A DNA stretch of 64,000 bases from Candidatus Bilamarchaeum dharawalense. Lineage in GTDB: Archaea; Micrarchaeota; Micrarchaeia; Anstonellales; Bilamarchaeaceae. This document shows, in pieces, positions 9,340 through 61,673 of the stretch. A program made the translations under genes and the position numbers. Numbering within the stretch: position 1 is the stretch's first letter; every line of letters starts with the position of its first letter. Location: positions 1-64,000 of the forward strand of contig CABMJJ010000011.1 of the NCBI GenBank assembly GCA_902386555.1. The letters are read 5' to 3'. The notes beneath the pieces are model-generated. The model was given only the letters and a program-made list of their open reading frames with translations, ran no database searches and was not told the DNA's origin.

Positions 9340-9466
9340 TGGGCCCGCGCGGAATCGAACCGCGAATCTCCCGCGCTCTCAAAACTTTTTATAGACAGTT
9401 TTTGATGAAACTTTTTCCTAAAAAGTTTCTGTGAGGCGGACGTCTTAACCATTCGACTACGAGCCC
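9340..9466 (-). tRNA. tRNA-Val(CAC) with a canonical intron
   Basis: Acceptor GGGCTCG (9466-9460) pairs with CGGGCCC (9347-9341); discriminator A is 9340. The D stem GTC/GAC, anticodon stem TCCGC/GCGGG and T stem CGCGG/CCGCG are all intact. The anticodon CAC is at 9433-9431. The intron sits after A37, at the usual archaeal 37/38 site. The junction folds as a textbook bulge-helix-bulge: a 4-bp helix CUCA/UGAG flanked by the 3-base bulges CA^G and AG^C, with cuts after the second base of each. Mature length is 73 bases. Confidence 0.93.
9376..9429 (-). other. 54-nt intron of tRNA-Val
   Basis: The 5' arm (AAACTTTTTA) pairs with the distal arm TAAAAAGTTT to build the inner helix of the splicing motif. 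The same arm can instead close a perfect local 10-bp hairpin (arm GAAACTTTTT on the plus strand, loop CCT, 9407-9429). The intron therefore has two mutually exclusive folds, only one of which presents the splice sites properly. Confidence 0.85.
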
Positions 9467-9662: not shown

Positions 9663-9853
9663 AGCCCCGTCGTCTAGTTTACCTTTTAGGAAAAGGTAAA
9701 GCCAAAACGGTTTGATTAAATTCGCTTCGCGAATTTTTCACGAGGTGAAAAATCAACAGCCGATTTTTGCGCCTCTTTTTCCTAAAAAGAGGCAACGGTC
9801 AAGGATAGTGGACTTTGGATCCATTGACACCGGTTCGAATCCGGTCGGGGCTA
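9663..9853 (+). tRNA. tRNA-Gln(TTG) interrupted in the D-loop
   Basis: Acceptor AGCCCCG (9663-9669) pairs perfectly with CGGGGCT (9846-9852), and discriminator A is 9853. Anticodon stem GTGGA/TCCAT closes loop CTTTGGA with anticodon TTG at 9815-9817. The T arm is ACCGG/CCGGT with loop TTCGAAT. The D stem GTCT (9672-9675) pairs with GGAT (9803-9806). Between A14-G15 and G18-G19 of the D-loop lie about 116 extra bases. Removing them gives an ordinary 75-nt tRNA-Gln. There is no intron at the canonical 37/38 site. Confidence 0.9.
9680..9795 (+). other. ~116-nt D-loop intron of tRNA-Gln, ends approximate
   Basis: The insertion is almost fully structured. Perfect hairpins lie at 9678-9700 (arm TTTACCTTTT, loop AGG), 9718-9736 (AAATTCGC, loop TTC), 9734-9752 (TTTTTCAC, loop GAG) and 9771-9793 (GCCTCTTTTT, loop CCT). 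The two middle hairpins overlap at 9734-9736 and so compete; both are enclosed by a longer imperfect stem (CGGTTTGATT at 9708 with AATCAA...CCG at 9751-9762). I could not find a clear bulge-helix-bulge at the ends, so the exact splice sites are unresolved. No homing endonuclease motif is encoded. Confidence 0.75.
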
Positions 9854-38195: not shown

Positions 38196-38237
38196 AATGG
38201 AGTTGTGTACCCCATCGCGCGTTACAAAAAGTTTTAG

Positions 38238-38260
38238 GGCGCCTTTTACTAAAAGGCGCT
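38238..38260. repeat. Perfect hairpin after the S3Ae gene
   Basis: Arm GCGCCTTTT (38239-38247), loop ACT, arm AAAAGGCGC (38251-38259); a G-T pair extends it to 10 bp. It overlaps the last base of the S3Ae stop codon. It may act as a terminator or processing site between S3Ae and NAC, and it belongs to the same hairpin format found inside the tRNA introns. Confidence 0.7.
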
Positions 38261-38855
38261 ACTTGAAGATTTCGCCTCGTTCTGATTTGCGAACTTCAAC
38301 TCTTTTCATTTTAGTTATTTGTTTGAGTCGGTTGAATATCTTCGAGGATAATCTTCCATAGATAACATCCTGGATAATTTCATCGAAATTTTTCTCAGCA
38401 ACTGCACCCTTACATTCGTCCACAATTAGAGTTCTTAGATTTCTTTTTGTGTTTTCACTTACGCGTGCACCAGTTACTGCGATGATCTTTAATCGTAATT
38501 GTTCGTTATCCTTGGTTTTCTCATCAACAACCTGGTGGATAAGAGACTTACCTCGCCTGGCAAAAGTTCTGATGAATGAGGGTAAAATTTCATGACCAAG
38601 CAATGTGGTGTTTGCATCATTGCCAGTAACATCTTTGATTCTGAATCGTAGGGCAGTGAACATTGCCATCTGAGACCCTCCGCCAGTCATACCAAGTTCC
38701 ATCAAACTTGCTTTCACCACACGGTTAACAAGTAGGTTTTCCTCAGCTGCAACTACTTCGCAGATTTCTCGCGATTCGAACATTGCCGGAGCTTTTACAG
38801 AATACCATTTTTTTGCTTTCCATTTATCAACAACTTTAACTTTTTTACCTGCCAC
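38259..38855 (-). CDS. rps3ae: Ribosomal protein S3Ae (eS1)
   Basis: Small-subunit protein of archaea and eukaryotes. The opening 'KKVKVVDKWKAKKWYSVKAP' is diagnostic, followed by 'FRIKDVTGNDANTTLLGHE', 'RRGKSLIHQV' and the terminal 'GRLSSKIFNRLKQITKMKR'. Length 198 aa is normal. It sits 12 bases after S15. Confidence 0.96.
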   Translation of the reverse strand: MAGKKVKVVDKWKAKKWYSVKAPAMFESREICEVVAAEENLLVNRVVKASLMELGMTGGGSQMAMFTALRFRIKDVTGNDANTTLLGHEILPSFIRTFARRGKSLIHQVVDEKTKDNEQLRLKIIAVTGARVSENTKRNLRTLIVDECKGAVAEKNFDEIIQDVIYGRLSSKIFNRLKQITKMKRVEVRKSERGEIFK

Positions 38856-59929: not shown

Positions 59930-60703
59930 ATGGACTTTATTCAGGCGATTATTCTTGGTATTATTCAGGGCATAGCAGAATGGCTGCCGGTTAGTTCTAA
60001 GGCAATGGTTGCATTGGCAGGAAAATTTCTATTTGGTATGAGCTATCAGGATGCATTGAGTACTGCAATATTTTTACACACTGGAACGCTCCTTGCTGCC
60101 ATTGTTTATTTTAGAAAAGAAATTTTTGAAATAGCCCAAAGTGTTTTCAAGAACAAAGATAGGAAATTGTTGGTTTTCCTGATTATAACCACAGCCATAA
60201 CTGGCCTGATGGGCCTTCCTCTGATGTTCGTTGCATTGAATTTTGAATTTCCAGAATTTCTATTTACTATTGTAATTGGCCTGTTTCTGATTGGAATTGC
60301 ATTGTTGCACAAAAACAGAAAGGAGAGCAGCGGAGCCCAATTAACTCCTAAAAAAGCCTTGGTTGCAGGTTTTGCCCAAGGTCTTGCAGCAATTCCTGGA
60401 GTTAGTCGATCGGGGATAACTCTGGCTGCGTTACTGAGTGAAAAATTTGATCTGGAAGAATCACTGAAAATCAGTTTTTTGATGAGTATTCCTGCTGTTT
60501 TTGGTGTTGAACTGGCTTTACCATTGATAAAAGGAAACTTTGTTGTTTCCAGTGATTTAATTGCTGGGAGTTTGGTTGCTGCCATTGTTGGTTTTATTAC
60601 AATTGATGCCTTGCTGAAAATTGCAAAACAAAAAAACTTTTATAAAATAATTTTTGGCCTTGGAATTTTGATTGTAATTTTAGGATTAGGATTACTTTTC
60701 TAA
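59930..60703 (+). CDS. uppP: UppP/BacA-family polyprenyl-diphosphatase
   Basis: Integral membrane enzyme removing a phosphate from polyprenyl diphosphate so the lipid carrier can be reused. Catalytic motifs 'EWLPVSSK' (~residues 18-25) and 'PGVSRSG' (~154-160) are intact, in a 257-aa protein with about eight helices. In archaea the carrier is dolichol-like and serves glycan attachment, for example to the S-layer protein here (inference). Its end overlaps the next gene, tail to tail, by 12 bases. Confidence 0.95.
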   Translation: MDFIQAIILGIIQGIAEWLPVSSKAMVALAGKFLFGMSYQDALSTAIFLHTGTLLAAIVYFRKEIFEIAQSVFKNKDRKLLVFLIITTAITGLMGLPLMFVALNFEFPEFLFTIVIGLFLIGIALLHKNRKESSGAQLTPKKALVAGFAQGLAAIPGVSRSGITLAALLSEKFDLEESLKISFLMSIPAVFGVELALPLIKGNFVVSSDLIAGSLVAAIVGFITIDALLKIAKQKNFYKIIFGLGILIVILGLGLLF

Positions 60704-60910
60704 TTGTTTTTTAAGATTGGATATTAGTTGAGAAAAGGTTAAACCTTTTTTCTGCAGAGAGAGTGCTTCTTCGTAGTGCTTTTTACAGAACCAGGCTGCA
60801 TAAAGCCCCATTGGTGCGTCTGGGCTTGATTCGTAAAGTGCCCATCCGTCAGTTGAACTTTCAAATTCTTTTTCGCAGGCTCTGCAAATCCAAACTTTTG
60901 GTGGTATCAT
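60692..60910 (-). CDS. Small zinc-finger-like protein
   Basis: 72 aa from the ATG at 60910: 'MIPPKVWICRACEKEF' with CRAC, later CKKH, giving a possible C2-C-H zinc site. The frame extends upstream to 60958, but that part is the 3' end of the tRNA-Ser gene and its T-run, so it is rejected. Function unknown. It converges on uppP with a 12-base overlap. Confidence 0.68.
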   Translation of the reverse strand: MIPPKVWICRACEKEFESSTDGWALYESSPDAPMGLYAAWFCKKHYEEALSLQKKGLTFSQLISNLKKQLEK

Positions 60911-60945
60911 GTTTTCACTTTTTAGAAAAAACGCTGAGGGCAGGA

Positions 60946-61004
60946 TTGTCAGTACCATTTTAGCACGCCCGTTTTTGGGCGTACCTTTTTACTAAAAAGG
61001 TACA
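60946..61004 (-). other. 59-nt T-loop intron of tRNA-Ser
   Basis: A bulge-helix-bulge can be drawn: outer helix GCAGG/CCTGC (the T stem), central TTCA/TGAC (three of four pairs), 3-base bulges AA^T on both sides, inner helix GTACC/GGTAC. Cutting after the second bulge base joins TTCAAA to TCCTGC exactly, i.e. between positions 59 and 60. The intron also contains a perfect 10-bp hairpin (arm GTACCTTTTT on the plus strand, loop ACT, 60981-61003), which competes for GTACC, and a second stem ACGCCC/GGGCGT. Confidence 0.82.
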
Positions 61005-61058
61005 TTTGAACCTGCGATCCCGAAGGGACCGGTTTTCAAGACCGGCGCACTACCAGGT

Positions 61059-61092
61059 TTCGCGCCTTGCGCGAATATAACGTTCAAGGCTT
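61059..61092 (-). other. ~34-nt D-loop intron of tRNA-Ser
   Basis: The inner helix GCCTTG/CAAGGC and central helix TCGC/GCGA can form around bulges ATAAA and AA, a relaxed splicing motif. Flanking AAA repeats leave the exact ends ambiguous by up to two bases. A perfect 7-bp hairpin (TTCGCGC on the plus strand, loop CTT, 61059-61075) occupies half the intron and excludes the inner helix. Confidence 0.72.
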
Positions 61093-61133
61093 TATGCGAC
61101 CTCAGCACGAACGAAGTGAGTTATGAGGGCTGG

Positions 61134-61163: not shown

Positions 61164-61673
61164 CTACTGTTGAGTTTCAGATGGTAACATTGTTTGGCTC
61201 TCATCCTTAACTTCAGGTTGTTTTTCTTGCACGAAATATTTCTTAAACTTCTCGGTAAGGGTTAATTTGGATGTTCTGCCTGCTTTGTGGGTTTTCACAA
61301 ACCCTGCTTCAACTAATTCATGAACATCTGCATAAATTTTAGGACCTATTTTTTTCACAAGAGTTGATTTTAGGATTCCGTCATTTTTTGAGATATATGC
61401 AAGAGTGCGAAGGGCAGCTTTGCTTATTTCAATATCCTGTGCAAATTGTTTCACACGCTGTAGATAATCATTTCTAACGCGCATGGAATATTTTCCATCC
61501 ATTTCAACTATTTCAATTGCCCTGCCTTCGTAATCTTTTACCAGTTCATCCATTACGGTTTGAAGATAACCTAAAGCTCCAATGCCAGTAAGTGTACGAA
61601 ATTCTTCCAAAGACATGGCACGAGAACTAATGAAAAGAGCAGCTTCGATGAGTTTTTTTTCTTCCTTTTCCAT
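61164..61673 (-). CDS. scpB: Segregation and condensation protein ScpB
   Basis: Kleisin-associated winged-helix protein that works with ScpA and SMC in chromosome organisation. 'KKLIEAALFISSRAMSLEEF' and 'EISKAALRTLAYISKNDGI' mark the two winged-helix units; 169 aa, with a Gln/Pro-rich tail. Its start overlaps the stop of the AK6-like gene by one base, so they are coupled. Confidence 0.9.
   Translation of the reverse strand: MEKEEKKLIEAALFISSRAMSLEEFRTLTGIGALGYLQTVMDELVKDYEGRAIEIVEMDGKYSMRVRNDYLQRVKQFAQDIEISKAALRTLAYISKNDGILKSTLVKKIGPKIYADVHELVEAGFVKTHKAGRTSKLTLTEKFKKYFVQEKQPEVKDESQTMLPSETQQ

Follow-up and report, generated by a model that had tools for sequence, protein, structure and literature searches.

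The window, the whole 64,000-nt stretch of DNA that was analysed, comes from a Micrarchaeota-like archaeon and most probably carries a functional tRNA-Ser(UGA) gene that is interrupted by two introns. Both introns would be spliced by an epsilon-2 endonuclease and the ligase RtcB, and the T-loop intron would be a copy of a spreading repeat, here called R1; we put the probability of this reading at roughly 0.93. The exon structure, the presence or absence of the introns in relatives, the helix geometry, and the genes for both enzymes were observed.

Structure and detection of the tRNA-Ser(TGA) gene

The gene lies on the minus strand at 61106..60932 and contains a D-loop intron of 34 nt and a T-loop intron of 59 nt. 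Taking out 61091..61058 (34 nt) and 61004..60946 (59 nt) leaves GCTGAGGTCGCATAACCTGGTAGTGCGCCGGTCTTGAAAACCGGTCCCTTCGGGATCGCAGGTTCAAATCCTGCCCTCAGCG, a class II cloverleaf with the anticodon TGA. Its parts and the neighbouring gene are as follows.

61092..61106, minus strand: exon 1 (5' strand of the acceptor stem, 5' strand of the D-stem, D-loop bases 1-2; GCTGAGGTCGCATAA), with the same joint in the intronless orthologue L107
61058..61091, minus strand: D-loop intron, 34 nt (AGCCTTG...CAAGGCGCGAAA), a relaxed bulge-helix-bulge with a 6-bp intron helix; a homologous 33-nt intron occupies the same site in G006
61005..61057, minus strand: exon 2 (remainder of the D arm, anticodon arm, long variable arm, 5' strand of the T-stem, TTCAAA; starts CCTGG)
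61038..61036, minus strand: anticodon TGA, within exon 2
60946..61004, minus strand: T-loop intron, 59 nt, an R1 unit oriented as the tRNA with its hairpin end at the 5' splice site (R1 match C11:60961-61004, minus, E=1.6e-9)
60932..60945, minus strand: exon 3 (final T-loop base, 3' strand of the T-stem, 3' strand of the acceptor stem, discriminator G; TCCTGCCCTCAGCG)
61164..61673, minus strand: ScpB-like gene upstream of the tRNA gene (Pfam PF04079, E=2e-25)

The boundaries of the D-loop intron were set by matching intronless orthologues, and a naive reading from the AAA bulge would give 33 nt. Placement of the T-loop intron can slide by up to 3 nt because AAT is repeated there.

An intron-tolerant cloverleaf finder was written for the analysis and gave the gene a score of 44.3. 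The top clearly non-tRNA match in 212 kb of the genome scored 39.1, and the maximum in about 329 kb of Markov-shuffled sequence was 37.2. Scores of genuine tRNAs extend down to about 39.3, a few weaker ones were identified by eye, and the identities of the low-scoring tRNAs were likewise judged by eye. Neither ARAGORN (introns on or off) nor Rfam cmscan detected the gene, and a mechanically called 88-aa ORF (60692..60958, minus strand) overlaps its 3' end; a sequence-only reading of the window had foreseen that standard finders would probably miss the gene or call a protein over this end. Genes of this kind can thus escape standard tRNA finders.

That reading had named a separate intact tRNA-Ser(TGA) gene, together with a lack of spliced reads, as the observation that would count against it, and no second intact TGA gene was found in the assembly (1.27 Mb, 11 contigs), which is 88% complete, so that another copy could be missing. 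Serine tRNA genes were found once each for GCT, CGA, GGA, and TGA, those for CGA and GGA being read by eye because stem introns are present. An additional 'tRNA-Ser(TGA)' reported by ARAGORN in L003 was rejected as a misreading, apparently of an initiator tRNA-Met with a stem intron. The DPANN-like character that had been proposed for the genome agrees with its adenylosuccinate synthetase: the nearest named relative, a Candidatus Micrarchaeota archaeon, has a protein with 66% identity to it, and other relatives reach 51% at most.

Comparison with orthologues

At the level of sequence, comparison with same-genus orthologues confirms the presence of two introns. Among 13 same-genus orthologues from 13 species, the tRNA-Ser(TGA) gene occurs in six intron configurations: intronless (G002, G004, and G013), T-loop intron alone (G007 and G010), anticodon-loop intron alone (G001 and G015), D-loop and anticodon-loop introns (G005 and G009), anticodon-loop and T-loop introns (G012 and G014), and D-loop and T-loop introns (the source genome, G000, and G006). 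In the intronless orthologues both junctions are continuous and the exon joints are identical. The conserved C-terminal coding sequence of ScpB adjoins the tRNA gene in several of the loci L104-L107, L111, and L113, providing a synteny anchor.

In an alignment of 15 spliced orthologues, two of them from neighbouring genera, 98.6% of the stem cells are paired and seven pairs are changed on both sides, a number reached in 0 of 500 shuffles; some splice placements were picked to fit the intronless joints, which biases the T-loop and D-loop columns toward agreement and leaves the stems independent. The acceptor stem, whose two strands enclose both introns, holds three of the seven doubly changed pairs. 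The intronless orthologues and this covariation bear out the earlier proposal of a tRNA-Ser(TGA) with inserts of 34 and 59 nt, here placed on the minus strand.

Splicing geometry and processing enzymes

A single cut register, two bases past a four-pair central helix on each strand, was applied to both junctions, and one cut geometry is common to the T-loop and D-loop junctions. The T-loop junction, for which a bulge-helix-bulge had been proposed, is a good one, with three of the four central pairs and a 5-bp intron helix (equalled by 24 of 20,000 dinucleotide shuffles). The D-loop junction is a relaxed bulge-helix-bulge with two of the four central pairs and a 6-bp intron helix (30 of 20,000 dinucleotide shuffles equal it). 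In the predicted fold of the precursor (-74.1 kcal/mol, z = -6.8), both the T-stem and the terminal intron helix are formed.

It is very improbable that the T-loop insert is the only intron and that the D-loop insert stays in the mature tRNA as an enlarged D-arm. The D-loop junction is indeed the weaker of the two in this genome, but orthologues have an ordinary 9-nt D-loop, the same site is filled in G005, G006, G009, and G019 by introns of varied sequence and of 33-47 nt, and the same register applied to the introns of G005, G006, and G009, the three tested, restores a 9-nt D-loop as in the intronless orthologues. The gene is equally hard to see as a decaying pseudogene, wrecked by two insertions and left unspliced: the central helix is mismatched at both junctions and the case for splicing comes from DNA, yet this TGA gene is the only one found, compensatory acceptor pairs are kept in the intron-bearing orthologues, and G006 fills both the D-loop and the T-loop site with intron sequences of its own while its exons are intact.

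A three-unit splicing endonuclease of the type described in ARMAN archaea had been predicted for this genome. A 391-aa protein aligns over residues 4-391 with residues 5-387 of the ARMAN-2 EndA (PDB 4FZ2; E=3e-131). The ARMAN-2 enzyme has catalytic Y236, H251, and K282 and a loop lysine, K161 (PMC6379350), and the alignment shows the corresponding triad (Y235, H250, and K281) and loop lysine (K160) to be conserved. By this full-length match and the retained triad and lysine, the protein is classed from its sequence as a full-length, single-chain three-unit endonuclease like the ARMAN-2 epsilon-2 enzyme (PMC6379350, PMC12397907). An endonuclease gene was present in 40 of 40 genomes checked, nearly all as open frames of about 390-440 aa, and the source genome also has a gene for the RtcB ligase (E=5e-168).

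Unlike in the ARMAN-2 system, a second, standalone endonuclease-domain protein is encoded beside the 391-aa enzyme (166 aa, L020:1459-1959; G000:C11:87817-88059). At least two triad positions are changed in this single-domain relative, where the usual Tyr is replaced by His and the usual His by Lys; because these catalytic residues are replaced, it is probably not catalytic. Short second copies of this kind were seen in most same-genus genomes.

From these observations we infer transcription, cleavage, and ligation of the precursor. The gene would be transcribed into a 175-nt precursor, in which the complementary ends of each intron would meet beside the exon joints to form bulge-helix-bulge-type structures. 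On each strand the broad-specificity epsilon-2 endonuclease would cut two bases past the four-pair central helix, and the exons would be joined by RtcB into an 82-nt tRNA.

The R1 repeat family

The T-loop intron belongs to a repeat family, R1, that is shared with many other introns and was not recognised in the sequence-only reading. R1 consists of the hairpin NNNNCTTTTAGNAAAAGNNNN followed by CCAAAACTGG..TTGCTA. In 18 copies 98.1% of the hairpin cells are paired, and 32 cells are compensated compared with 9.1 in shuffles. Convergence on a mere hairpin was rejected as the source of the likeness, since CCAAAAC..TTGCTA past the hairpin is also conserved, and a known RNA family was rejected since Rfam gave no match over the tRNA-Ser(TGA) locus. 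Further places in the window that carry R1 include the following.

9340..9466, minus strand: tRNA-Val(CAC) with a 54-nt anticodon-loop intron that carries R1 in the same orientation
9663..9853, plus strand: tRNA-Gln(TTG), whose 118-nt D-loop intron consists of a pair of inverted R1 units
38222..38261, minus strand: R1 copy with no recognised tRNA gene around it

A covariance model, after removal of palindromic double counts, identified 57 R1 copies in this genome; this count and those of tRNA genes derive from searches and from retrieved stretches of sequence, and they do not cover the genome exhaustively. About 34 of the 57 copies are inside tRNA introns (26 in automatically parsed tRNA genes and about 8 in genes read by eye), nine sit at most a few bases from an RNA end, and about 14 are elsewhere. 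As tRNA genes make up, by a rough estimate, about 0.5% of the genome, the enrichment of R1 in them is extreme. The abutting copies are located 5' of two Leu tRNAs, 3' of His, Gly, Arg, Ser, and Pro tRNAs, at the 3' end of the SRP RNA (RNA ends at L176:1496, R1 starts at 1496), and at the 3' end of the RNase P RNA (RNA ends at L227:1086, R1 starts at 1088). The latter two may reflect a role in 3'-end formation or an insertion preference. Most introns that bear R1 consist of one unit (about 50-59 nt) or of two units in inverted arrangement (about 75-150 nt).

Orientation was examined in this genome together with the best-scoring matches from G009, G010, G012, G013, and G015, tRNA context not being a criterion. 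In parsed tRNA genes 39 units run along the tRNA and 36 against it. With splice positions assumed to be canonical (anticodon and T-loop) or at a fixed offset (D-loop), and not fitted to R1, the hairpin end coincides with the splice site, at a median distance of 0 to -1 in the larger groups, which cover D-, anticodon, and T-loops and both orientations.

Of 17 same-genus genomes, 16 contain R1, with 2 to 108 copies each, and R1 is plentiful in both sampled genomes of the sister genus g2. Elsewhere in a 295-genome sample of the phylum it is rare, with a single outlier, G156, that has 10 copies. G156 belongs to genus g22 of the same order, outside the R1-rich genera, and its matches suggest horizontal movement or patchy loss.

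How R1 may spread

The T-loop intron would be a copy of this structured repeat, with the hairpin end setting a splice site, and R1 would have spread among the tRNA genes of the genus. Our tentative preference, held at less than even odds, is to see in R1 a small mobile repeat acting at the DNA level, one that turns into a working tRNA intron where it lands, as an archaeal counterpart of introner elements. Its complementary ends would provide the intron helix for the splicing endonuclease whichever way it is oriented, and the permissive three-unit enzyme would allow it to multiply in tRNA genes and at the ends of stable RNAs. R1 has the marks of a mobile repeat in its many dispersed copies with recent expansion and its insertion in either orientation, and such a repeat best explains the balance of orientations and the copies outside tRNA genes.

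A second account, possible although we regard it with some doubt, is that recombination or gene conversion between the T-arms of different tRNA genes brought in the T-loop intron, R1 being old intron sequence that needs no transposition-like step. In G004, tRNA-Leu(TAA) has a T-loop intron that agrees with this 59-nt intron at 58 of 59 positions and is flanked by the same GCAGGTTCAAA/CCTGC arm, and the tRNA-Ser(TGA) of G004 itself is intronless; most R1 T-loop introns also share one orientation. Alone, this exchange leaves unexplained the 39:36 balance of orientations, the occurrence of R1 in D-, anticodon, and T-loops, and the copies that lie between genes or at the ends of SRP RNA and RNase P RNA.

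Movement at the RNA level, in which an excised intron RNA is reverse-ligated into another tRNA and then fixed by reverse transcription and recombination, seems improbable. It would account for the coincidence of the hairpin end with the splice site, and intron transposition by an unknown mechanism has already been proposed for Thermoproteales (PMC4090602), but it would hold one orientation relative to the tRNA, so the balanced orientations disfavour reverse splicing.

For the DNA-level mobile repeat, REP-like mobilisation by a Y1 transposase was considered and rejected, as the presence of Y1 does not track R1 copy number; a search for Y1 transposases gave none in this genome or in the R1-rich G009. 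An exact-pattern search for R1 in viral contigs gave no match. AAT is repeated at the T-loop of tRNA-Ser(TGA) and AAA at the D-loop, but reading other introns by eye shows no consistent target-site duplication.

Relation to known systems

Noncanonical tRNA genes with multiple introns have been reviewed for Thermoproteales and other archaea (PMC4090602). The features shared with these are introns in D-, anticodon, and T-loops, several per gene, at bulge-helix-bulge or relaxed motifs, and rapid gain and loss between relatives; the differences are the Micrarchaeota-like lineage, another endonuclease type, and introns derived from one repeat in both orientations. Near-identical introns at different positions of non-orthologous tRNA genes recall the intron transposition reported in 2010, and, as that case is described where PMC4090602 cites it, the present one is set apart by near-equal orientations, introns made of inverted pairs, and R1 copies that lie between genes or at the ends of tRNAs, SRP RNA, and RNase P RNA. 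In Atabeyarchaeia and Freyarchaeia (Asgard archaea), described in passages of PMC11291895 as having intron-saturated tRNA sets, the majority of tRNA genes are also interrupted, many at noncanonical positions; unlike here, those passages mention no shared repeat family. Gain of tRNA-gene introns was tied to a possible mobile element in Caldiarchaeum too (PMC3293823), which in that case is 1.8 kb long, has a recombinase gene, and lies next to the tRNA, whereas here units of about 55 nt are the introns themselves.

Earlier work has described noncanonical tRNA genes with several introns, transposition of introns, and the broad-specificity epsilon-2 enzyme (PMC4090602, PMC6379350, PMC12397907), and has linked tRNA disruption to mobile elements (PMC3293823). 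What appears to be new is the R1 family, a previously undescribed repeat that would serve as tRNA introns in either direction. A literature search of incomplete coverage returned no account of an R1-like repeat family in Micrarchaeota. In eukaryotes, introner elements are repeats whose ends supply splice sites and which multiply as spliceosomal mRNA introns. R1 resembles them as a repeat with ends that supply splice sites and that multiplies as introns, and differs in forming enzyme-spliced tRNA introns and in that no transposase was identified for it (the Y1 family was looked for). Introner elements are mentioned in PMC11782384.

The origin of archaeal tRNA introns is a long-standing question. 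Within the one genus studied here, a single serine tRNA gene occurs in at least six intron states, donor and recipient introns can be recognised, and R1 ends lie at splice sites in both directions; intron gain can therefore be tested by comparison of close strains. The findings fit the idea that intron spread is permitted by broad-specificity splicing enzymes.

Other tRNA genes and R1-associated loci

Genome-wide, about 44 tRNA genes were recognised, of which about 35 are interrupted. Three introns each were seen in Arg-GCG (C7:39907-40198) and Gly-CCC (C4:29455-29184), and there are possibly four in Ile-TAT (C3 near 71590-71890). A second family of T-loop introns, TTCAAA|AGC...TTTGCCAGCA..GCTGACAA|T, occurs in the T-loops of Leu-TAA and Leu-TAG in this genome and at L119, L121, and L231; because it is present across several genera, it is probably older than R1.

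Partial tandem repeats of tRNA 3' ends often mark past integrations. At L281:330-640 (G015:C21), an intact tRNA-Gly gene is accompanied by partial tandem copies of its 3' end, and R1 adjoins one of these copies. At G000:C3:85521-85562, R1 directly follows a tRNA 5' fragment (GGACTCGTAGCT), a possible tRNA remnant, 27 nt upstream of tRNA-Arg(TCT).
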